NCBI RefSeq assembly: GCF_000427465.1
Contig: NZ_KE386497.1
Span: 438,162-502,161 of the forward strand
From: Sinorhizobium arboris LMG 14919
GTDB lineage: Bacteria > Pseudomonadota > Alphaproteobacteria > Rhizobiales > Rhizobiaceae
Reading direction: 5' to 3'
DNA length: 64,000 nt
Shown: in pieces, positions 42,831 through 53,842 of the stretch
How positions within the stretch are numbered: the first letter of the stretch is position 1
Layout: every line of letters begins with the position of its first letter
Translations under genes and position numbers: made by a program
The notes under the pieces: generated by a model
Seen by the model: only the letters and a program-made list of their open reading frames with translations
Database searches by the model: none
What the model was told of the DNA's origin: nothing

Positions 42831-43237
42831 CGTTTCCGTCAGGGCCATTGGCTGGTTTCTTGGTTCCTATTTGTCTACTTTCTACCTAGACTCTAGGCGC
42901 AAGCGGAGAATCAAGGTCTCGAACGCGGCGAGAACAAGGGGCACTTGGCGAAAAGCGCATCGCCTTCGCCGCAAAGTCGCACAATCAATACTTGGTCCCT
43001 ATCGTAGTGAGCACGCGAAGAAATCGGCGTCCGGGTGACGGAAAGATAAGGCAGGTTGGTTTCCGTTTCCACGATTCAAGATGTTAATTCACATGGTTAA
43101 TAAATCGTCATTGCTGCCGCAGAACGATTGAGGAGGATGCTGGCCTCGATCCACCAGTCATCTTGCTCGAGGGGTGTTATTGCGGCACCAGATTCTGTAA
43201 GAGCGTGCGATCAGACTCCAACCAGGTAAACTTTCGT
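42831..43237. other. Intergenic region upstream of the nucleotide-metabolism island
   Basis: About 400 bp. The left half is probable vapB decay. The right half (43060-43140) is AT-rich (GTTAATTCACATGGTTAATAAA) and is the likely promoter region of the ATP-grasp-like gene. No gene is called. Confidence 0.4.
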
Positions 43238-44596
43238 ATGGCGCTGCACAAAGACGAGATTCTGAACTCCCTTGCTGCTACTGCTAATGTCGCGCAGTTT
43301 GTGGCCTTCCGCCCTTTGGGAGGGCGCCTGGTTCAGAGTTATTGCAGGATTACCGGTTTTGAAGAAAACCACCGATTTCAGGACTCCAAGCAAGCGGTGG
43401 AAGCCCTCCTAGGTCGCAGTTCCGACCGAATGGTCAACGTTCGGAGCTACGAGCCGAACAGCCCCCGCAGCAGAGAGTTTGTATATGGCTTACGAACGGT
43501 CGAAGAGACTTTGGCAGTCCTCGATCGCTTGGCGGCGGAGGATCTCCACCTAATTGTAAATGAGACCATAGACATTCATGACGGCGGCGTATCCGGGGTT
43601 GTACAGGGCCAACTGATTGAATTTGCTCCAGACGACACGCCACGCTGTGTGGAAAAACCAGGGGCTGCATCGTTGCCTCTCGCGATTGGACTGAACATCC
43701 TCAACACAGTTTATGGGCTTTCCGCAGAACTCTCGTTTGCGCAAGGCTCCCGCGTTGAATTCAGCATCCATCCTAAGCCGCGTGGTTACCATCAACGCCA
43801 TACAATTGTATGGGAACTTGAACGCGATGCGCCGAGTTTCCTTCCCGCTGCACTAACCTGGCCGAACCGGTTTAGTCGCCATTTAGGGGACAAGGTCTTT
43901 GGCCTGCTCGTCGCCAACGCATTGGGAGTTCCCGTGCCCCGAACGACGGTGATTGGCAGGCGTACGGCCCCCTTCACTTTCGGAAGAGACACGGGATCGT
44001 CAGAAGTCTGGACGCGGACTGCGCCCACCGAGCCGCAGCCAGGGCTCTACACGACCGTCAAGGGATGGTTGGATCCGTTCGCACTACTGTCATCGGAGGA
44101 TCCCGACGGGTCAAATATTCGTTCGGTGATTTGCCAGTCGGCTGTACGAGCCGAGTTTTCCGGCGCGGCGGTAACCGGCCCGAATGGCCAAATCATCATC
44201 GAGGGGCGCCGAGGGGAGGGGGACCGATTCATGCTTGGTCTCCAATTGCCGGAAACGCTGCCGTCCTTCGTCGTTGAGAATGTTTCAGCCATATATGCTG
44301 TTCTAGCAAGCCGCCTCGGTCCTGTGCGGTTTGAATGGGTGCACGATGGCGATGTCGTTTGGATCGTTCAACTGCATTGTGGCGGGACGGGTACGACCGC
44401 GGACGTCATCGTTCCTGGCGACGCCGACACGTGGGTAGAATTCGAAAGCTCTGCCGGATTGGACAAGTTGCGCAGTTTGTTGGCATCCCTGCCCCCAGGG
44501 GAGGGCATTCTGGTAGTCGGCCGTGTTGGACTTACAAGCCACGTTGCGGACTTGCTTCGGAAGGCAAATCGGCCATCCAAGCTGAAAGGCGTCTAA
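43238..44596 (+). CDS. PEP-synthase/ATP-grasp-like protein of unknown function
   Basis: A 452-residue protein from the ATG at 43238 (MALHKDEILNSLAATAN), preceded by AGGTAA. An open extension to 43163 has no coding look. The part from residue 95 to 270 (VNETIDIHDGGVSGVVQGQL) and FSGAAVTGPNGQIIIEGRRG near 305 recall the nucleotide-binding half of PEP synthase/PPDK, where 'SG...' glycine strands and a late F-E-W motif occur. FEWVHDGDVVWIVQLHCGG near 365 fits the 'EWa.d...iwilQ.R' end of that fold, but the final Arg is not conserved. The catalytic His domain of PPDK is absent. It may bind ATP and phosphorylate a substrate. It lies 204 bp upstream of the HD phosphohydrolase. Confidence 0.5.
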   Translation: MALHKDEILNSLAATANVAQFVAFRPLGGRLVQSYCRITGFEENHRFQDSKQAVEALLGRSSDRMVNVRSYEPNSPRSREFVYGLRTVEETLAVLDRLAAEDLHLIVNETIDIHDGGVSGVVQGQLIEFAPDDTPRCVEKPGAASLPLAIGLNILNTVYGLSAELSFAQGSRVEFSIHPKPRGYHQRHTIVWELERDAPSFLPAALTWPNRFSRHLGDKVFGLLVANALGVPVPRTTVIGRRTAPFTFGRDTGSSEVWTRTAPTEPQPGLYTTVKGWLDPFALLSSEDPDGSNIRSVICQSAVRAEFSGAAVTGPNGQIIIEGRRGEGDRFMLGLQLPETLPSFVVENVSAIYAVLASRLGPVRFEWVHDGDVVWIVQLHCGGTGTTADVIVPGDADTWVEFESSAGLDKLRSLLASLPPGEGILVVGRVGLTSHVADLLRKANRPSKLKGV

Positions 44597-44748: not shown

Positions 44749-44806
44749 CCATCTGAATATCCCGCTCAGATAGCAGTACGGAAATGATTCGCCCTAGGAT
44801 GTGTCG

Positions 44807-45355
44807 ATGAACGTTCAAGTCGCTGTCAAGATGAACTCAGGGCCGAGCATCATGCTTGCAAGCGGTACCTGGTTCGATCTCCTTGATCCGTGGCATAGCC
44901 ACTTCACCATACAAGACATCGCTCAGGGCCTTTCAAACATATGTCGCTACGCCGGTCAGTGTAGGGATTTCTATTCGGTCGCAGAACATTCCTTGCATGT
45001 CTGTGATACGATAGGGGAGTTCAAACTCGAGGCATTGCTGCATGATGCTGCGGAAGCGTTCATTGGCGATATTACCAGGCCGCTCAAACAACTCCTTCCG
45101 GAGTATAAAGCCATCGAAGCTAACGTCGAAGCCGCGATTTACAGCCGTTTTAGCCTCAATCAGATGGCTACACCTCACGTTAAGCTGGCAGATCTGCGCG
45201 TGCTGGCGGCCGAGCAAGCGCAACTCATGCCTGTCGGAACTGACTACTGGGCCGCGCAGTCCGATGTTCGTCCTGCACCCGTCGCCGTAGAGTTTCTCTC
45301 CCCCTCCATCGCGCGCGAACGCTTTCTCGCCAAATTTCATGAGTTAACGTGTTGA
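44807..45355 (+). CDS. HD-domain phosphohydrolase (YfbR/DatZ-like deoxynucleotide hydrolase)
   Basis: A 182-residue HD-fold protein. The ATG at 44807 has AGGA seven bases upstream, unlike the GTG at 44801. VAEHSLHVCD supplies the first His, ALLHDAAEAFIGD the HD pair near residue 77, and VKLADLRVLAAE the distal Asp. The set DFYSVAEHSL...LLHDAAEAFIGDITRPLK is typical of small 5'-deoxynucleotidase-like enzymes, a group that includes YfbR and the phage dATP hydrolase DatZ. Its substrate is probably a deoxynucleotide. It is convergent with the DUF7002/PurZ-like operon and shares its terminator region. Near a PurZ-like gene, removal of dATP would be a natural role, but the sequence alone does not fix the substrate. 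Confidence 0.8.
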   Translation: MNVQVAVKMNSGPSIMLASGTWFDLLDPWHSHFTIQDIAQGLSNICRYAGQCRDFYSVAEHSLHVCDTIGEFKLEALLHDAAEAFIGDITRPLKQLLPEYKAIEANVEAAIYSRFSLNQMATPHVKLADLRVLAAEQAQLMPVGTDYWAAQSDVRPAPVAVEFLSPSIARERFLAKFHELTC

Positions 45356-45406: not shown

Positions 45407-46102
45407 TTACTCGTGCGGCCCGTCATCGAGGTCCGCTCCTGGGCGGCGCCACAGTTCAATTAATTGTCCGTTCGCAAAGCGGTGAGCTGATATCAAATGG
45501 TCCATGATATCGTGGACACCATATGGCACCGTCAATTCCACTAGTGTGTCTTCGACCGCGCGCGTTTTCCGCCGCTCGCCGAAGGGGTAATCTGCGATCG
45601 GAAGGAATGTACCCCGGCCGCGAGGCTGAGGGTTCATAATGGTCGAACCGCTGTTGATCGGGCTGAGCAAGATGTTGTTCTGGTGCGAAGCCACAAGCGA
45701 GGCGGTATCCACTGTAAGGATGGTTTGCGGATAGTCGCGGTACGCCTTGGCCTTCAGCAACCTCCACAAACGCTTCTTGTGAAGCCAGAAGAATGTTTTC
45801 TCGTTGAGCGTGCGATACCATTGTTCTGGCCTCAGCCCGTCCTGTAGGCACTTTTCTAGAGCGCTGTCCGTCATGGGCTTGTTGTCGCGGATTACCGCAT
45901 TTGGCAGACCGTTTTTTGAAATTGTCACGCTTTCAGGGCGGCGCTGGGCTTCGATTTCCAAGCGTCGCGCGCCGTTGATTTCGTAGAGATCAAGGAGCGC
46001 CGTGGCGCTCAATAGGCCACGCTCCTGTATAGAGGGAAATGCGCCATCCTCGGCCATATGGAAGAGCCGCGGGTACATCTGCAGTAGAAGGTCAATTTCC
46101 AT
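45407..46102 (-). CDS. DUF7002-like protein
   Basis: A 231-residue protein starting at the ATG at 46102, two bases after the PurZ-like gene's stop (TGA at 46105-46107), so translation is probably coupled. The motif LFHMAEDGAFPSIQERGLLS and the following ALLDLYEINGARRLE fit DUF7002. FFWLHKKRLWRLLKAKAYRD and LTVDTASLVA are further family-like strands. The 'H...G....I...GLLS' opening resembles ADP-ribosyltransferase-type folds (for example DarT), which I mention only as a possibility. No other catalytic motif is visible. Its coupling with the PurZ-like gene suggests that it acts on a product of that enzyme or in the same pathway. Confidence 0.6.
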   Translation of the reverse strand: MEIDLLLQMYPRLFHMAEDGAFPSIQERGLLSATALLDLYEINGARRLEIEAQRRPESVTISKNGLPNAVIRDNKPMTDSALEKCLQDGLRPEQWYRTLNEKTFFWLHKKRLWRLLKAKAYRDYPQTILTVDTASLVASHQNNILLSPINSGSTIMNPQPRGRGTFLPIADYPFGERRKTRAVEDTLVELTVPYGVHDIMDHLISAHRFANGQLIELWRRPGADLDDGPHE

Positions 46103-46104
46103 CT

Positions 46105-47706
46105 TCAGTCTTTGCTTTCTCGCCGGTCGATCACGATGGCATTTGGCCCGAAATCTTTTGTAATCCAAGTGACCCTGGCACCAGTGACACGCTCGAGGTT
46201 CTGAACAAATGACTTGGTCTCGGCAGTCAGCCCGGCATACTCCGCCACGGTCTTGTTTGAAGCGTCAATGTAATCAGCGAACGTAAGCGCGATATCGGTT
46301 GCTCCATTCAGGACTGCGGACCGTCGTGCTTGCTCCCAATCGAACTCTCCGATGCGCCTCTTTTTGCCTGACACGGTGCCCACTTCTGTTCCGGTGATAT
46401 CCTCTTCCGGAACGCCGCTTCGCTTAGCGATGGTCGCAAAGTTAATTTCGTTCATCATCGGGCCAGAATTTCCACCCACGCGAATAGGATACGTTCTAGT
46501 TACCATGATCACGCGGCGCACCCTTGATGGAGCGATGCCGGCGTCCGCCAAGCATCCTGACGCGGTCGTTTCCCTGGATGTGACATACGGGTAATGACCA
46601 TGATGGATGCTCAGGTCTGTCCCCTGAGTCCCTTCGAGCAGAATGCGGTCGCCGCGCCGGTAGGCCTTCTCGAGCTCGACCTTCGTGCATCGGACAAACT
46701 GTTTGAATTCCGGTATATCTTGAGCGAGGCGAACCGGAGCATCGAAGTGAACCTTGTCGCCACGCCCGAGGATCTTCCTCGCAGTTGCAACACCGACCCC
46801 CTTCTTCGTTGAGCCGATTGCCTCAAGGCTTCCCATTTCGACCTTGACGTCCTCGTCTTCGATAACAATGGCCTGGGGGTCGATCGACAGTCGGTCTCCG
46901 GTAAGGCTCAGATCGGTGATCTCCTTCAGGACCTGTTTAACAGAAAGTGTGGCGCCTGCACCAATCAGGAGCTTCGCCTCGGGATTTGATTGCGTTCCTG
47001 AAGGAAGCTGAATGTAGTCGTATTTTGGGAAGGAAACTTTGTGCCCGGCGTTCGGTCCACCGACCCGCATGAGAACTTGATACTCTTTTGCGATATGGGC
47101 ACAGATGTTGCCTTTCCCTTCGCTGCCGAATTGTGCACCAACGAGAACATCAACGAGTGGTGGGATACCCTCCGGGAAGAGCTTTAGTCCGCTTGCCGCA
47201 AGGGCCAGGAGGGAAGCGGCACTATTTTTGTGCGCATCCAGAACACGATCGGCTTTTGTCGCGAGTTCTTCAATGCTTCTTTCCGTCCCGTGAAGACGCG
47301 CTTCGTCGTAGCTTGCAAATTCCTGCAATTCCGCGGGGCGTTCCAGGTAGCGTTTTCGGAGAATGCCAATCGGAGCTGTGAGGTGAATATGAATAAGCTG
47401 ATTTTCGAATCTCGTACGAAAATGCTGTATTTGCTGCACAGTTCTAACGGCGTCGATCAACCAAATGGATCTTTCTAGATTGCCACCCGCGAGCGATAGG
47501 AACTCGTCAAGTACCCAGCGGCCCGATGTCTCCTCGTCGAGGTCCAATCCCAACTGAATGAGAGCTTCGCGACCGGCGTCAGGGGTCCGCTGCAGCAAGA
47601 GCTGTCGCGTGGATACCTTGCGAGCGCCGAAACGCGCTTCGAATTCCTTAACTAGAGCTGATTTTCCAACCGAGATGGGGCCAGAGATCAAAATTACATT
47701 GCACAT
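46105..47706 (-). CDS. P-loop kinase fused to PurZ-like adenylosuccinate synthetase
   Basis: A 533-residue fusion. Residues 1-175 are a nucleoside-phosphate-kinase-like P-loop domain: GPISVGKSALVK (9-20) is Walker A and SIWLIDAVRT lies near 82. Residues 184-533 are an adenylosuccinate synthetase. QFGSEGKGN (192-200) is the P-loop, where the catalytic Asp of PurA (GDEGKGK) is Ser195, and GGPNAGH (216-222) holds the catalytic His. LLEGTQGTDLSIHHGHYPYV and RTYPIRVGGNSGP follow. Ser at this place, the IRVGG-N-SGP loop and the compact length of about 350 residues match phage PurZ enzymes, which make 2-aminoadenylosuccinate from dGMP. Typical bacterial PurA is about 430 residues. Start is ATG with GGGGAG ahead. 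The gene is translationally linked to the DUF7002-like gene. Confidence 0.8.
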   Translation of the reverse strand: MCNVILISGPISVGKSALVKEFEARFGARKVSTRQLLLQRTPDAGREALIQLGLDLDEETSGRWVLDEFLSLAGGNLERSIWLIDAVRTVQQIQHFRTRFENQLIHIHLTAPIGILRKRYLERPAELQEFASYDEARLHGTERSIEELATKADRVLDAHKNSAASLLALAASGLKLFPEGIPPLVDVLVGAQFGSEGKGNICAHIAKEYQVLMRVGGPNAGHKVSFPKYDYIQLPSGTQSNPEAKLLIGAGATLSVKQVLKEITDLSLTGDRLSIDPQAIVIEDEDVKVEMGSLEAIGSTKKGVGVATARKILGRGDKVHFDAPVRLAQDIPEFKQFVRCTKVELEKAYRRGDRILLEGTQGTDLSIHHGHYPYVTSRETTASGCLADAGIAPSRVRRVIMVTRTYPIRVGGNSGPMMNEINFATIAKRSGVPEEDITGTEVGTVSGKKRRIGEFDWEQARRSAVLNGATDIALTFADYIDASNKTVAEYAGLTAETKSFVQNLERVTGARVTWITKDFGPNAIVIDRRESKD

Positions 47707-48038: not shown

Positions 48039-48056
48039 TGACCTTGCCCCCAAGTT

Positions 48057-48983
48057 TTATCCAGTTTTGAGTTCGCTCCAGCGGTTTTGGGTTGCTGCAG
48101 TTGCGGCGGTAGCGGCGGGTTGCGGTGCGGAGCCATTTCGGCTGCGCAGCACCGCATCACGTCGCGGGCTGATGGTCTGAGCGAACTCGGCAGGTGTCAG
48201 CCAGCCGAGGCCAGAGTGTGGTCGGTTATCGTTGTAATCGCTTCGCCAGTTTAAAAGCGCTGATCGGGCATGGGTCAGTGACGAGAAGAGAGTCTCATTC
48301 AAGAACTCGTCTCGCAGACGCCCATTGAAGCTTTCGATGAAGGCGTTTTGGATCGGTTTGCCTGGCGCGATGTAGTGCCACTCCACCTTGGCTCGGTCCA
48401 CCCATTGCAGGATCGCGTTGCTCGTGAATTCGCTGCCGTTGTCGCTGACGATCATCTTCGGTTTGCCGCGCTCCTCGATGATCCGATCCAGCTCACGGGC
48501 AACCCTCAGACCGGAAAGCGATGTATCGGCGACAAGTGCCAGGCATTCCCTGGTGCAATCGTCGACGACCGTCAGAACCCGGAACCTGCGTCCATCGGTG
48601 AGCTGATCCGATACGAAGTCCAGCGACCAACGATCATTGGCTGCCATCGGGATCAGCATCGGCGCTCGCGTGCCTATCGCTCGCTTGCGGCCGCCGCGCT
48701 TGCGCACTGTCAGCTTCTCTTCCCGATAGAGCCGGAAGAGCCGCTTGTGGTTCACACGGTGACCCTCACGCCTGAGCAGCACATGAAGGCGTCGATATCC
48801 AAAGCGGCGGCGTTCATGCGCCAGCGCCTTCATCCGCTCGCGAAGGTCATGGTCATCGCTGCGCCTGGTTTCATAACGGATCGTCATCCGGCAAAAGCCG
48901 ATGGCTTTACACGCCCGCCGTTCGCTCATCTGGTGGCGATCCATCAGATGCGCGACAGCGTTCCGCCTTGCTGCGGGCGTCAC
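48057..48983 (-). CDS. IS3-family transposase OrfB
   Basis: A 308-residue frame from the GTG at 48983 carrying the DDE catalytic domain: [20 protein letters not shown] holds the first Asp, [18 protein letters not shown] the second, and [17 protein letters not shown] the Glu. The first part ([20 protein letters not shown]) is the usual HTH region. Its frame is open upstream in register with orfA (-1), and the overlap TTTTGGGAAAGAAGTGG is a candidate slippage site, giving an OrfAB fusion transposase. The element appears undamaged. Confidence 0.9.
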
Positions 48984-49246
48984 CACTTCTTTCCCAAAAG
49001 GTCTTTCAAAGCGGCATTGTCGAGCATCGCATCCGCCAGGAGCCGCTTCAGCTTTGTGTTCTCGTCCTCCAGCGCCTTCAGCCGCTTGGCCTCGGATACG
49101 TCCATGCCGCCGAACTTGGCCTTCCACTTGTAGATGCTGGCGTCGCTGACACCATGCTTGCGGCAAAGCTCCGACACCGGCGTGCCCGCCTCGTGCTCCT
49201 TCAGAATGCCGATAATCTGTTCGTCCGTGAAACGGTTGCGCTTCAT
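48980..49246 (-). CDS. IS3-family transposase OrfA
   Basis: An 88-residue protein with an N-terminal helix-turn-helix ([20 protein letters not shown], then [20 protein letters not shown]) and a C-terminal leucine-zipper-like helix ([20 protein letters not shown]). This is the IS407-type OrfA, which binds the terminal repeats. It ends with LGKKW, where the OrfB frame takes over by programmed -1 frameshift. Confidence 0.9.
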
Positions 49247-49447
49247 TCCCTGGTCCTCTCAATGGGCCAGAGCTTACTTCAAAATGGATTATTTCAACGG
49301 GGCAAGGTCAGGCGGAATAAATTAACATCTGTACTGACGTTTATAGAGAGAAAAGATAAATATATCGTCTGCGTCCTATAATCTTTATGTTAGATCGCAA
49401 ATATTATCGAGGGAGCATACAACAATGGTCCTGTTTTGTTAATGATT

Positions 49448-50137
49448 TCAGATGAACTGAAAAGCTGAGGCCCAGCCCAGCTTTGCATGGGCGGCGCTCA
49501 AATTAGTCACTGGTGAGGACGCATCATCACAAAATACTGCATCAGATATTAGCTGCATACCTGCAAGTTTTAGATACTCGTTTATAGAGCTTTGCCGATG
49601 CTTGAACGTCGCGGCCATGACGCTCCCATCCGCCGTTGGCAGCTTTGTAAGTTCATAGGGATGGGATGCATCGACATTTGAGATGAGGAGTAGACCTTTT
49701 GGCTTGAGCATTTGCATCATCATTCTCAAGGATATCCTATAGTCTTCGAGATGAGAAAGGACGCGCGTACACAGCACAACGTCAAACCGTGTGTTCGATC
49801 GGAACTCGGCGCTATCGGCGTGAATGAATTCAGATAAAGGGGCGCGAGCGCGGGCAATGGAGAGCATTCCTTGGCTTACATCGATGCCAACCGAAGACCT
49901 AAAGTAAGGCTGTAGCTCTTTTAAATAAAATCCTGTCCCGCAACCCACGTCAAGAAGACTATCGCGTTCTGCATCGGTGTGTCTACCTATGGTGTTCAGT
50001 ACAAATGGTGCCTCAGTTGAGCGCCAGAAGGCTTGCCATTTCCACTCATCATAGCGTACGGATGCCGCATCGTAGGCATCTGCGGGAGTTAGGACATCCT
50101 TTCTGGAGTCGAGATGGGTTGGGGACGTGTGAATCAT
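49448..50137 (-). CDS. Class I SAM-dependent methyltransferase
   Basis: A 229-residue methyltransferase. Motif I is SLLDVGCGTGFYLKEL near residues 60-75, VGIDVSQGMLSIARARA is motif II and FDVVLCTRVLSHLED motif IV. This is a Type 11 or UbiE-like small-molecule methyltransferase, with no target-recognition region that would point to DNA or protein. It overlaps the DCD-like gene by four bases (50134-50137), so the two are co-translated. Its substrate is unknown; in this nucleotide-rich setting a modified base or nucleotide is possible but unproven. Confidence 0.75.
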   Translation of the reverse strand: MIHTSPTHLDSRKDVLTPADAYDAASVRYDEWKWQAFWRSTEAPFVLNTIGRHTDAERDSLLDVGCGTGFYLKELQPYFRSSVGIDVSQGMLSIARARAPLSEFIHADSAEFRSNTRFDVVLCTRVLSHLEDYRISLRMMMQMLKPKGLLLISNVDASHPYELTKLPTADGSVMAATFKHRQSSINEYLKLAGMQLISDAVFCDDASSPVTNLSAAHAKLGWASAFQFI

Positions 50138-51057
50138 GGTTTCTTCTCTAAGGCTCCCAGGCGCGCGTCTATTTTAGACAGTCGCTCCAGAATCGCGTTC
50201 ACATCGTTCGAGTTGGCAGTTCCGCTGACTGTGATACGCTGCTTTATCGCTTCATCCGCTTCAGAGCGAGCCACTTCTTTCACGTCGGGAAAGAGCTCGC
50301 CTTTGACATAGTCCGTTATTAAGGAAACACCCGCCAAGAAGGCAAACGCACCAAGTGCCCAACCGAACGAGCTTCGGATCGCAGCCGGAAGGTCCCTTTT
50401 GAACTCATGGACAGCCTCCTCCTTGGCTGCGGTGAGTTCATGTCGAACGGAAGTCTTGATTTCATCGCCGATGCTGTTGATCTGACGGATCGCGGTTTGC
50501 CTTTCAGTTGCAATTTCCGTCGAAAGCTCGGCAACTTTCAAGAATGTCTTCGGTTGGTCAACTGCCAGCTGACGCAGCGCGGCATCGTACTGTTGACGAG
50601 TAATTTGACTTGCATACGGTGACAGTACGCGTCCCCGAAGCTCGGTAAACACCATCTTGGCGATAGGGGTTTCACTCGTAATCACGACTGTAGACTTAGC
50701 AAAATTTACAAACAGGCACGCTAAATCACCTTCGTAGCCCGGCTCCACCATGCTCATGTTCACGAGCATCAGACCCTTCCTCGAAAGCGTGTTTGTTTGC
50801 CACCAAAAACCAACCAGATTGTTCGGGATACTAACTCGCTCTCGAGTCCTTATCCAGATCATTTGGCCCGGACTTACAATGACCTCTCCATTTTGGCCGT
50901 CTTGAAATTCGATGGGGACGGATGTCTCTCCTGGGATGAAGGCAGAGCCGCACACAAATGAATAGGAGCATTCTTGCGCTCGTTTAGGATCTCCATTCTT
51001 CACCAATTCGCCGCGGTCGATGCAAAACCTAATTTCTTCGTCAGACAGTACTGCCAC
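50134..51057 (-). CDS. dUTPase/dCTP-deaminase-like domain with coiled coil and membrane anchor
   Basis: A 307-residue protein from a GTG at 51057 with GGAG seven bases upstream. Residues 1-140 show the dUTPase/DCD fold: YSFVCGSAFIPGE, IWIRTRERVSIPNNLVGFWW and SMVEPGYEGDLACLFVNFAK, with PIAKMVFTEL as the last strand. The SSLAR loop of dCTP deaminases is NTLSR here, and the Glu of 'LEL' after the 'DPGYEG' turn is absent (ACLF). The catalytic residue of the deaminase is therefore probably lost. Residues 150-220 form a helix or coiled coil, a hydrophobic segment at about 229-248 (SFGWALGAFAFLAGVSLI) spans the membrane, and a short coiled coil follows. A nucleotide-sensing or scaffolding role at the membrane seems more likely than classical deamination. 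Confidence 0.65.
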   Translation of the reverse strand: MAVLSDEEIRFCIDRGELVKNGDPKRAQECSYSFVCGSAFIPGETSVPIEFQDGQNGEVIVSPGQMIWIRTRERVSIPNNLVGFWWQTNTLSRKGLMLVNMSMVEPGYEGDLACLFVNFAKSTVVITSETPIAKMVFTELRGRVLSPYASQITRQQYDAALRQLAVDQPKTFLKVAELSTEIATERQTAIRQINSIGDEIKTSVRHELTAAKEEAVHEFKRDLPAAIRSSFGWALGAFAFLAGVSLITDYVKGELFPDVKEVARSEADEAIKQRITVSGTANSNDVNAILERLSKIDARLGALEKKP

Positions 51058-51460: not shown

Positions 51461-52735
51461 ATGAACGGAATTGTGCTGAATGAGAAAGAACTGCGGGATG
51501 CGCGAGCGCGGGTAGCAAAACTATCAGACGCGTTGTCGGCAGAAAGCGGCATCGTGCAGCTCGCTTCAAATCTCCCACCCGAAGTCGTGACGCAGGTCAC
51601 AAAAATGATGAAGGCGGAGCGTCTTCGGCTACTTTCGGCGATAGAGGCATTCGAATACGCAAGAGAGGCTGGTGATGCATCTTCCCTTCTCAAGCAATCT
51701 GGGACGGATCCTGGCGTAACACTCATCGTGGCGAGGATCGCGAAGGGCTATTCCCAAAAAGATCTTGCTTGGCGTCTGGGAGTGAAAGAACAGCAGATCC
51801 AGCGATATGAGGCTGATCGCTACAGCTCTATTAGTCTGAAAAACTATGCTCGTGTAGCAGCGCTGCTCGGTGTCCAATTGAGCGCAACTATCACAGAGAA
51901 TCCGAACTTCCGTGGTTTGGATGCTGTCATCGCAGACGTAACTCGGGAGGACATCCGAAAAATCCTGAAGCATGGTCGCTCGCGCGGCTGGTTCGCAACG
52001 GACATGAGCGAAGCGCAACTTCGCCAATACGTCGCAGAAAATCGCATCGAGTTCGGTAGCCCTTCGTTATTGCGGACCGGCCTAAACGTGACCGACCATA
52101 GCGAGGATGTACTCCTTCACGCGTGGCGAGCACGCGTGGCTACCCGGGCTCGTGAGGAACTTTCGCAGCAGGCGATGACCTTCGATCCGGCGGATATACT
52201 TTGGCTGGCTGGACTCGTTCGGCTGAGTGCCCATCCCGATGGACCAAGGCGGGCCCGGGAAACGCTCAAAGAAAAAGGGATTCTGCTCATCGCGGAGCCT
52301 CAGATACCCGGTCTTGCAATTGATGGGGCGGCATTCCTCGAAGGCAACATTCCAGTTATCGCCTTGACCATTAGGAAGGACACTATTGACAATTTCTGGT
52401 TCACGCTGCTGCATGAAATCGGTCATGCAGTCCTGCACTATCGGACAGGACTGGCTACTGGTTTCTTCGATCAGCTTGAGACAGTATCTACTGATGAACA
52501 GGAGGCGGAAGCTGATTCCTTCGCTTCCAACATTCTCATACCCGAAGAAAAATGGCGGAGATCGACTGCTAGAATAGCCAACTCTCCTGTTGTCGTGGAG
52601 AGTTTCGCTAAGGAGCTTGGCATCCACCCAGCGATTGTCTTCGGTCGCATACGGAAAGAACGGAATAACTACTCAATATTTTCGAACAAAATAGGCGCCA
52701 ACACTGTGCGCGAACAGCTGATCGGCCCGAGCTAA
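51461..52735 (+). CDS. XRE-type HTH and ImmA/IrrE metallopeptidase fusion
   Basis: A 424-residue regulator. Residues about 85-135 (IVARIAKGYSQKDLAWRLGV, KEQQIQRYEADRYSSISL) form an XRE helix-turn-helix. The C-terminal domain carries the zinc-peptidase motif LLHEIGHAVLHYRTG near residue 316 with EQEAEADSFASNILIP (the family's E.EA..FA segment) some 30 residues later. ImmA/IrrE proteins cleave or derepress partner repressors in response to damage. Here both functions are in one protein, so it may sense a signal and release its own repression. It begins an operon with the Beta-family gene, nine bases downstream. Confidence 0.88.
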   Translation: MNGIVLNEKELRDARARVAKLSDALSAESGIVQLASNLPPEVVTQVTKMMKAERLRLLSAIEAFEYAREAGDASSLLKQSGTDPGVTLIVARIAKGYSQKDLAWRLGVKEQQIQRYEADRYSSISLKNYARVAALLGVQLSATITENPNFRGLDAVIADVTREDIRKILKHGRSRGWFATDMSEAQLRQYVAENRIEFGSPSLLRTGLNVTDHSEDVLLHAWRARVATRAREELSQQAMTFDPADILWLAGLVRLSAHPDGPRRARETLKEKGILLIAEPQIPGLAIDGAAFLEGNIPVIALTIRKDTIDNFWFTLLHEIGHAVLHYRTGLATGFFDQLETVSTDEQEAEADSFASNILIPEEKWRRSTARIANSPVVVESFAKELGIHPAIVFGRIRKERNNYSIFSNKIGANTVREQLIGPS

Positions 52736-52744
52736 GGAGATCTC

Positions 52745-53842
52745 ATGCTTCCGTATCATCCAGCTCTTCGGTTTAAGCAGGGGGAATATCTCGCCACCGG
52801 GAAAGTTGCGCGGGATATCCAAAAACATATTCAGCCGCGCTTCATTCTCGCCCCTCCTAAAGAAAAGGACCCTGAGAAAGGCAAGCCCCTGACGGAGGAG
52901 GAGATCGCTGTTCTCACTGGAGAGCGCATTGCGAAACATTGGCCGCTTTATCCGGCCTATCTCGATGCCCAGTATGTTGCCCCGTTTTTGGGGGACGGGG
53001 GACTTAAGCAGTTATTCCGAATTGCGCAGCGTCGAAACGAGCAGTTGGCCGTCGTCGCCACCGTCAAGGATCTTTTCAATCCAATTTACCGCGATTTCCT
53101 TCGGTCCTCTGCCCCGCGAATTGGTATTTACCTTCCATACGAAGATGTAGACGTCGACTCGCTCTTGAAAGGCGTGAAGGCGATTGGTTGCGAAACGACT
53201 GAGTGCGCTCTGTTCGTTGATTTCACGAAGGCGCCTTTGAGTGTCGAAGGCGTGTCTGGATCAGTTGCAGGAGTCTTTGACATGCTTGGCACGGCGGCGC
53301 AGTGGGCACGCATAATTTTCCAAGGCTCGAACTTTCCCACCAAAAACCCGGCCGAAAACGACAGCCAGTGCTCCATACCTCGGAGTGAATGGCAGGTCTT
53401 TCTTGCCGCTTTGAACGAATGCTCGGTGCCTCCGAATGTTATTGGCTACGGTGATTTCGGCGCAGACCACGGCGAGATCAAGTTCCGACGTAAAGGAGGA
53501 GGGTCTGCGCCTATTCGGCATATTCGCTACACTGGAAAGAAGGCGACATTCGTCTTTAGGGGCAGGGAGTCCGGAAAGCAGGGCGAGGTCATGAGGGCAG
53601 TGTGTGAAAGAGTTCTGAGCAGCGGTGAGTTTGCCGGCCAGGGCTATTCTTACGCCGACGACATTATTTGGCGGGTCGCTAAGGGCATGTCGGCCGCTGG
53701 AACTCCATCGATGTGGCGAGAATGGAATATGGCTCATCATATGACGCGTGTGGTGCGAGATCTTGGATCAATGGCCGGAGTGACCTTCGCGGACGGTCCG
53801 GTCAGCCATGTAGCGGAACAGCACTCTCTATTCACCGAATAG
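52745..53842 (+). CDS. Beta family protein (T4 Beta-like, PF14350)
   Basis: A 365-residue protein with AAGGAG five bases before its ATG. The N-terminus reads YHPALRFKQGEYLATGKVAR and then PRFILAPPKE. The end TRVVRDLGSMAGV and the segment WRVAKGMSAAGTPSMWREWN fit the Beta-protein family (PF14350). Relatives derive from phages and are often next to ImmA/IrrE-type genes in bacteria, with defence or superinfection-exclusion roles suggested. No catalytic motif is obvious. It is followed after 39 bp by the CoiA-like gene, with an SD directly in front. Confidence 0.75.
   Translation: MLPYHPALRFKQGEYLATGKVARDIQKHIQPRFILAPPKEKDPEKGKPLTEEEIAVLTGERIAKHWPLYPAYLDAQYVAPFLGDGGLKQLFRIAQRRNEQLAVVATVKDLFNPIYRDFLRSSAPRIGIYLPYEDVDVDSLLKGVKAIGCETTECALFVDFTKAPLSVEGVSGSVAGVFDMLGTAAQWARIIFQGSNFPTKNPAENDSQCSIPRSEWQVFLAALNECSVPPNVIGYGDFGADHGEIKFRRKGGGSAPIRHIRYTGKKATFVFRGRESGKQGEVMRAVCERVLSSGEFAGQGYSYADDIIWRVAKGMSAAGTPSMWREWNMAHHMTRVVRDLGSMAGVTFADGPVSHVAEQHSLFTE

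Follow-up and report, generated by a model that had tools for sequence, protein, structure and literature searches.

A probable plasmid of Sinorhizobium arboris LMG 14919 carries four neighboring genes that we read as a host nucleotide-conflict module, in which a phage-type synthetase of 2-aminoadenine (Z) nucleotides is joined by an ADP-ribosyltransferase effector, probably acting against phages; to this reading as a whole we give a probability of about 0.5. The window analyzed is a stretch of 64,000 nucleotides (contig NZ_KE386497.1, positions 438,162 to 502,161), in which genes D and C, on the plus strand, meet genes A and B, on the minus strand, tail to tail. The parts of the reading are not equally firm. 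Judging from its residues and clade, gene A very probably performs PurZ-type chemistry on a guanine nucleotide, and genes A and B in all likelihood work together; an anti-phage role of the module is likely, and action of gene B on Z itself is doubtful.

The synthetase-kinase fusion and its clade

Gene A (46105..47706, minus strand) starts with ATG and encodes 533 amino acids, assigned from models, alignment and trees as a PurZ-like synthetase with an N-terminal NMP-kinase-like domain. The kinase-like domain covers residues 1-180 (47167..47706, minus strand), and the adenylosuccinate-synthetase domain runs from about residue 184 onward (Pfam Adenylsucc_synt, 187.7 bits). In the N-terminal part Pfam matches the AAA_18 P-loop NTPase family over residues 5-136, below cut-off; all 12 members of the kinase-domain profile A4 match AAA_18, nine match phage guanylate kinase and six match dNMP kinase. 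Against the PDB this profile finds archaeal AdkA-like/UPF0200 proteins (E 5e-13 for 3lw7, and 6.1e-13), and these profile matches agree with the nucleoside-phosphate-kinase-like domain put forward in the sequence-only reading.

The P-loop reads GSEGKG (residues 194-199, 47110..47127, minus strand) and places Ser195, in the alignments, at the position of the catalytic Asp of PurA, exactly as had been read from the sequence at the outset. G194-S195-E196-G197-K198-G199 is invariant in an alignment with 15 fusion rows, and among the best 120 homologs all 119 that retain the P-loop carry the Ser: a P-loop pattern caught 118, with Ser in every one, and of the two that it missed, P0114 likewise has GSEGKG and P0085 is a 325-aa fragment beginning past the P-loop. 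The IRVGG-N-SGP loop, pointed out earlier as a second PurZ feature, is present in gene A; I-R-V and S-G are invariant over the 15 fusion rows, with the rest variable, and the PurA rows have TRVG-GPF at this position.

Substrate-contacting residues were compared in a 28-sequence alignment, in S-2L numbering, that included 14 fusions and four PurA-type rows. Position 23 is Ser in 14/14 fusions and Asp in 4/4 PurA-type rows; position 131 is Ser in all 14 fusions and Thr in three of the four PurA-type rows (L018 has Ser). Position 273 divides the fusions, being Gly in the window protein and all nine subtype A rows, as in PurA, and Thr in the five subtype B and C fusions and in 10/10 viral-contig fusions checked; the phage PurZ rows have Thr in eight of nine cases (Ala in BpsS140). 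Position 308 is Asp in the window protein, likewise in PurZ0 phages and PurA rows. Excerpts of one study name S23, T273 and Q308 among the substrate-touching residues unique to PurZ (PMC8342488). By these residues gene A appears to have the base pocket of a PurZ; in its subtype the aspartate loop, GTVSG, is instead that of a PurA, so GMP may also serve as a substrate.

Plain scores speak against a PurZ assignment. Gene A scores 210.7 bits against the NCBIfam PurZ model NF038379 (cut-off 300); its best NCBIfam score is to adenylosuccinate synthetase PRK04293 (270 bits, cut-off 368), it reaches 213.6 bits against TIGR00184 PurA (cut-off 395.55) and 173.1, 119.4 and 96.7 bits against other PurA models (cut-offs 402, 445 and 700), and it matches none of the PurA and PurZ NCBIfam models listed above its cut-off. 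By plain score the archaeal Pyrococcus horikoshii PurA is the closest solved structure, at 178 bits, and phage PurZ reaches only 119.9 bits. Against PHROG 1211, the phage PurZ family, gene A scores 228.6 bits.

The trees, like the residues, favor PurZ. In a tree of 57 rows, 22 fusions, 17 standalone bacterial proteins and nine phage PurZ separate from nine PurA-type rows with support of 100/100; the fusions form one group (100/99), closest to the S-2L/phiVC8/BpsS140 phages (97/87), in a tree flagged for long branches, S-2L among them, and for uneven composition. The rows include one archaeal PurA and zero archaeal PurZ. A second tree of 72 rows added 18 viral-contig rows and removed LR756503 as well as F_Mbull_L014 and F_Smel_L010, the last two being near-duplicates of retained rows. 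The split persists (64 versus 8 rows, 100/100) and 29/29 fusions group together (100/100), viral ones scattered among bacterial ones; the link of the fusions to the S-2L-type phages is no longer resolved. L101 and L104 branch first under the drawn root, which is a midpoint used for drawing only, so that a phage-to-host direction is something we infer. The uncultured phage record LR756503 turned out PurA-like: it retains the Asp and groups with PurA.

On these sequence comparisons, gene A is a member of the PurZ clade, apart from PurA. The P-loop Ser, the tree position and the PHROG 1211 match thus uphold the claim that it is PurZ-like rather than PurA-like: in both trees, set against PurA and phage PurZ, the synthetase domain falls outside PurA (100/100), and the PurA rows all have Asp where an ordinary PurA with Ser would have weakened the case. 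A PurA duplicate is ruled out by the P-loop and tree position, despite the archaeal PurA being nearest by plain score. The host has its own PurA, separate from gene A (G000:C4, 584.9 bits), and a PurB (516.9 bits).

Standalone bacterial relatives also depart from the PurA P-loop, with 115 Ser, 5 Gly and 0 Asp among the top 120 relatives of the L019 protein. Standalone PurZ-like genes lie beside dCTP deaminase/dUTPase-like genes in L019 (11.3-14.1 kb) and L071 (8.6-11.4 kb); the dCTP deaminase-like neighbor scores 21.7 bits, below cut-off, in L019 and was read by eye in L071, which has a deoxynucleoside-kinase-like gene as well (by eye). Of 8000 scored candidates, 7063 reach E <= 1e-10, PurA maybe included, and the standalone proteins are possibly a large uncharacterized lineage.

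Conserved partners of the fusion

The sequence-only reading, sound on the PurZ-like character and the kinase domain of gene A, had missed its conserved partners, which change the picture. Gene B (45407..46102, minus strand) encodes a DUF7002 protein of 231 aa and starts 2 nt past the end of gene A; over seven loci measured, the spacing ranges from a 2-nt gap to an 11-nt overlap. A DarT1-like ADP-ribosyltransferase fold is predicted for gene B. Its only Pfam match is DUF7002, and in a PDB profile search DarT1 appears at E 0.51, ranked below chance-like talin matches. Glu189 is invariant in 17/17 rows and lies at the start of a strand (189-193), making it a candidate counterpart of DarT1 E152. 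Among the window proteins scanned with Pfam and NCBIfam there was no NADAR or macro-domain antitoxin gene, and DUF7002 was not mentioned in the literature searched.

Gene C (44801..45355, plus strand) encodes an HD-domain phosphohydrolase of 184 aa that is YfbR/Dmp-like and distant from DatZ by PHROG, Pfam and PDB comparison. It scores 209.5 bits against PHROG 318 (dNMP phosphatase) versus 31.7 bits against PHROG 7076 (dATPase), 24.2 bits against PF12917 (cut-off 25.9), and matches the DatZ structure 6zpa at E 0.095. We therefore rejected gene C as a DatZ; being nearer to dNMP phosphatases, it might destroy the product of gene A, which we count against our preferred explanation. The HD motif of L019 reads HE, so some variants may have an inactive gene C product.

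Gene D (43238..44596, plus strand; also callable from an upstream TTG at 43163) encodes a 452-aa protein without a Pfam family, whose ATP-grasp domain (residues ~205-452) resembles the nucleotide domain of PPDK/rifampin phosphotransferase. It reads R364-F365-E366 and lacks the Asp that we take to precede the PPDK Glu, which makes catalysis by gene D unsure. This ATP-grasp family also occurs in four of seven genomes where no fusion was found. In four genomes without the fusion (L059-L062) it stands beside an HD dGTPase-like gene, which in two of them matches the PADLOC dGTPase family at 409.9 and 402.8 bits, and in three there are QueC-like and PfkB-like genes too (by eye); the ATP-grasp and dGTPase-like pair looks like a separate undescribed defense unit.

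In loci L004-L017 the fusion has one and the same set of partners (DUF7002, HD and 452-aa proteins), which recurs in L029, L072 and L089. Of the 34 fusion loci, 27 have an ADP-ribosyltransferase-like gene within 6 kb of the fusion (25 DUF7002, two DarT-like by eye), and 17 of these 27 have both the HD and ATP-grasp genes. The set of 34 counts one record twice, as L007 and L013, and includes a near copy of the window (L004) and two loci whose fusions are identical (L098 and L102). An ADP-ribosyltransferase-like gene was not found within 6 kb in the other seven loci, all viral contigs, one of which (L104) has a left flank of only 1 kb. Across the order, 8/397 genomes have the fusion and 7/394 have DUF7002, with both in six, the fusion alone in two and DUF7002 alone in one (Fisher p 4e-11 over ~394 genomes, the difference between 397 and 394 being ignored). 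Class-wide, 11/385 genomes have DUF7002, which is beside the fusion in five (the window genome, G510, G805, G823 and G888) and has no fusion within 3.5 kb in another five (G1030, G1048, G1061, G911 and G905, two with broken frames); the eleventh is a fragment and stands outside this comparison. Close DUF7002 proteins are thus strongly tied to the fusion, and no such tie was seen for distant ones.

Variant loci add other genes. An ImmA/IrrE-type gene directly precedes the fusion in L030, L032, L087, L088, L095 and L100, and in L030 (subtype B) a macro domain was found with it; such a gene might sense or erase ADP-ribosylation. A metallopeptidase-like gene follows the fusion in L030, L033 and L100. 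L033 and L034 have a DarT-like gene, a label given by eye, plus a second kinase; neither DarT-like protein has a PDB sequence match at E <= 1, that of L034 has only a Pfam RE_Bsp6I match below cut-off, and that of L033 has no PADLOC match.

Replicon, host and viral settings

A RepC match inside the window, on the same contig (about 60817..61338, minus strand; G000:C5:498978-499499), indicates that the replicon is probably of the repABC type and supports the plasmid location already proposed. Eight plasmid records, from seven Rhizobiaceae and one Methylobacterium, have one match covering at least 80% of the query. A 100% identical copy of gene A occurs in Sinorhizobium kostiense DSM 13372. An IS3-type insertion of ~1.27 kb with rve domains (48039..49310, minus strand; ORF 48057-49262) lies between the methyltransferase gene and gene A, outside the module; it is missing from L004, the S. 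kostiense DSM 13372 locus, whose sequence to either side of the site is the same as in the window, and its flanks share 4 bases.

Upstream of gene A are two possible accessory genes, each with a homolog in L012: a class I methyltransferase gene recognized by Pfam (49448..50137, minus strand), and a dCTP deaminase/dUTPase-like gene (50134..51057, minus strand; Pfam 54.1 bits) with a hydrophobic C-terminal segment seen by eye, whose homolog adjoins the module in L012. For comparison, the DutZ of Z phages is Dut-like, according to excerpts of PMC12884076. PD-Lambda-2-like defense genes (51461..52735 and 52745..53842, plus strand; PADLOC PD-Lambda-2_B 225.8 bits, PD-Lambda-2_C 86 bits) adjoin the module and give it an island context, and defense genes near relatives, picked by annotation, include Gabija (L011, L015), an RdrA-like gene (L013) and SIR2 (L016). 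None of the families of PADLOC-DB 2023 matches the four module proteins.

A different purine cluster occurs on another rhizobial plasmid. In L018 (Rhizobium leguminosarum pCC283b_4), a 7-deazapurine-type cluster beside nod genes encodes FolE, a synthetase with Asp, PurB, QueE, IMP dehydrogenase, a nitrile hydratase subunit and QueC. The L018 enzyme has kept the Asp (WGDEAKG) and falls with PurA in the tree. On both counts the fusion differs, and we rejected the reading of gene A as a 7-deazapurine cluster gene.

The viral fusions come only from the viral_contigs set (IMG/VR), as the best 80 of 87 confirmed loci; since GSEGKG was part of the search pattern, the Ser of those loci is not counted as evidence. 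Among phage isolates, none of 218 matching records covers 80% of the fusion. Of the seven fusion-bearing viral contigs without a recognized ADP-ribosyltransferase, six adjoin phage DNA-polymerase or nucleotide-enzyme genes. In L104 the gene that immediately follows the fusion encodes a nucleoside deoxyribosyltransferase-MazG protein, and L096 has such a gene 2.6 kb upstream of the fusion. L097, L098, L101 and L112 encode family-A DNA polymerases, to which L098 adds a primase; reading by eye also gave helicases in L098 and L112 and a primase in L112. DmtZ, an enzyme of the deoxyribosyltransferase family, is part of Z biosynthesis (excerpts of PMC12884076), and the deoxyribosyltransferase-MazG neighbor resembles it; by this analogy, the fusion of the viral contigs may serve Z-DNA synthesis.

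Proposed mechanism, alternatives and known systems

From the sequences, clade, gene linkage and predicted folds described above, we draw the following scheme of substrates, A-B coupling, defense and effector target. Gene A would join Asp to the 6-position of dGMP (or GMP) in the manner of PurZ, host PurB would release fumarate to give Z monophosphate, the fused kinase domain would phosphorylate it, and host NDK would complete the triphosphate. Gene B, translated directly after A, is the likely effector. A DarT1-fold relative of gene B attacks the N2 amine of guanine, and one option is that gene B targets the 2-amino group of Z, in the free nucleotide or in newly made DNA; a second is that it is a nucleic-acid toxin regulated by the Z nucleotide. 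Genes C and D may clean up, sense or license the nucleotide, and the output would probably be a stop to phage replication. In its most specific form, which we hold doubtful, infection would lead to Z nucleotides and the DarT1-like partner would ADP-ribosylate the Z N2 amine in phage DNA or nucleotide. This would amount to a build-your-own-target immunity around a captured phage-type enzyme, with a replication-coupled label on new phage DNA or with ADP-ribosyl-Z as messenger. In E. coli the S-2L Z cluster proves toxic (excerpts of PMC8342488), and a module of this kind would therefore have to be controlled, likely through C and D. Several observations weigh against the scheme: neither an enzyme converting dGTP to dGMP nor a Z polymerase was recognized in the window module, the seven viral-type fusion loci are without gene B, and both distant DUF7002 proteins and the ATP-grasp family also occur away from the fusion.

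The same enzymes could instead serve base modification: the module would make dZTP, plasmid or cell DNA would carry some 2-aminoadenine, for example as protection against restriction, and the ADP-ribosyltransferase would be regulatory. A PurZ-type enzyme with a kinase fits this, as does an HD hydrolase from a broad family that includes DatZ (excerpts of PMC12884076), and E. coli given datZ, mazZ and purZ does incorporate Z into its DNA; however, that triad is toxic there (excerpts of PMC8342488). Pfam gives no MazG-type match among the module proteins, and no Z polymerase was recognized. The sparse carriage noted above, the position beside defense genes and the DNA-type ADP-ribosyltransferase partner, which would be unexpected, also speak against base modification, and we consider it unlikely.

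Equally improbable, in our estimate, is a ribonucleotide version, in which gene A uses GMP, 2-aminoadenosine nucleotides act as messenger or RNA poison, and gene B modifies RNA or a ribonucleotide. The PurA-like loop of the window's subtype at the T273 position would suit it, and excerpts of PMC11618068 describe CmdTAC as an antiviral mRNA ADP-ribosyltransferase system. Against it, subtypes B and C and ten viral-contig fusions have Thr at that position, the viral homologs accompany DNA polymerase genes, and gene C is nearest to deoxynucleotidases.

Depletion would need no Z at all: gene A would turn dGMP into a dead-end adduct and gene C would degrade deoxynucleotides, starving phage DNA synthesis. 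Depletion of dNTPs is a known defense in Clover and dGTPases (excerpts of PMC12265719), and the ATP-grasp family stands beside an HD dGTPase-like gene in four loci without PurZ. The trapping of dGMP as a succinyl adduct had been offered earlier as a defense strategy; we disfavor it because host PurB could split the adduct and the fused kinase suggests onward phosphorylation. With the kinase domain and gene B left unexplained, depletion seems to us quite unlikely. That gene A is a diverged PurA, or a cargo enzyme acting on some other purine, with no conflict role, is very improbable: L018 shows that a 7-deazapurine-type cluster on a rhizobial plasmid can include an additional synthetase, and archaeal PurA is nearest by plain scores, but the L018 enzyme has the Asp and the PurA grouping, neither of which holds for the fusion, and its partners are other ones.

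The comparisons show a PurZ-type lineage that is present in bacteria, including their plasmids, as well as in viral contigs, and that in the bacterial loci is tied to an ADP-ribosyltransferase. Should the proposed chemistry be right, bacteria would themselves make 2-aminoadenine nucleotides, and an enzyme known from phages for genome modification would be a host weapon in a new class of nucleotide immunity. Among the literature matches listed, which cover few subscription papers, there was no bacterial PurZ, no such fusion and no system that pairs PurZ with an ADP-ribosyltransferase; phage defense and adenylosuccinate synthetase were not mentioned together in the literature searched, and adenylosuccinate goes unmentioned in a survey of viral NAD/ADP-ribose systems (PMC9503650). 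Excerpts of PMC12884076 give a PurZ group of 147 phage and four archaeal sequences, with 298 prokaryotic sequences sampled, so bacterial PurZ could have been missed there. The single families are known or named and their coupling is undescribed in the literature searched, and for this reason we rate the system as new, not the enzyme. Archaeal PurZ has reportedly been described by Tong in 2023.

Phage PurZ and PurZ0 (S-2L, phiVC8, Ghobes) are succino-2-aminodeoxyadenylate synthetases. Gene A resembles them in the Ser for Asp in the P-loop, the IRV..SG loop and the side of the tree on which it falls; it differs in being host-encoded and kinase-fused, in its PurA-like aspartate loop and in partners unlike those of the phage Z cluster. 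Kongming, which reportedly relies on dITP-based signaling, would be alike in the use of a base-modified deoxynucleotide as immune signal, with a different base, synthase and effector. DarTG1, a pair of DarT1 and NADAR, is an anti-phage setting for ADP-ribosyltransferases (excerpts of PMC11543638) and shares with gene B the predicted DarT1 fold; in contrast, gene B matches only DUF7002 in Pfam, no NADAR was found in the window, and its partner is a nucleotide synthetase. Clover (CloA-CloB) and the anti-phage dGTPases are alike in having an HD hydrolase and acting at the level of nucleotides, and the ATP-grasp family of gene D also pairs with dGTPases; compared with Clover as described in excerpts of PMC12265719, the four genes here have no dGTPase-nucleotidyltransferase pair and bring in a synthetase and an ADP-ribosyltransferase.
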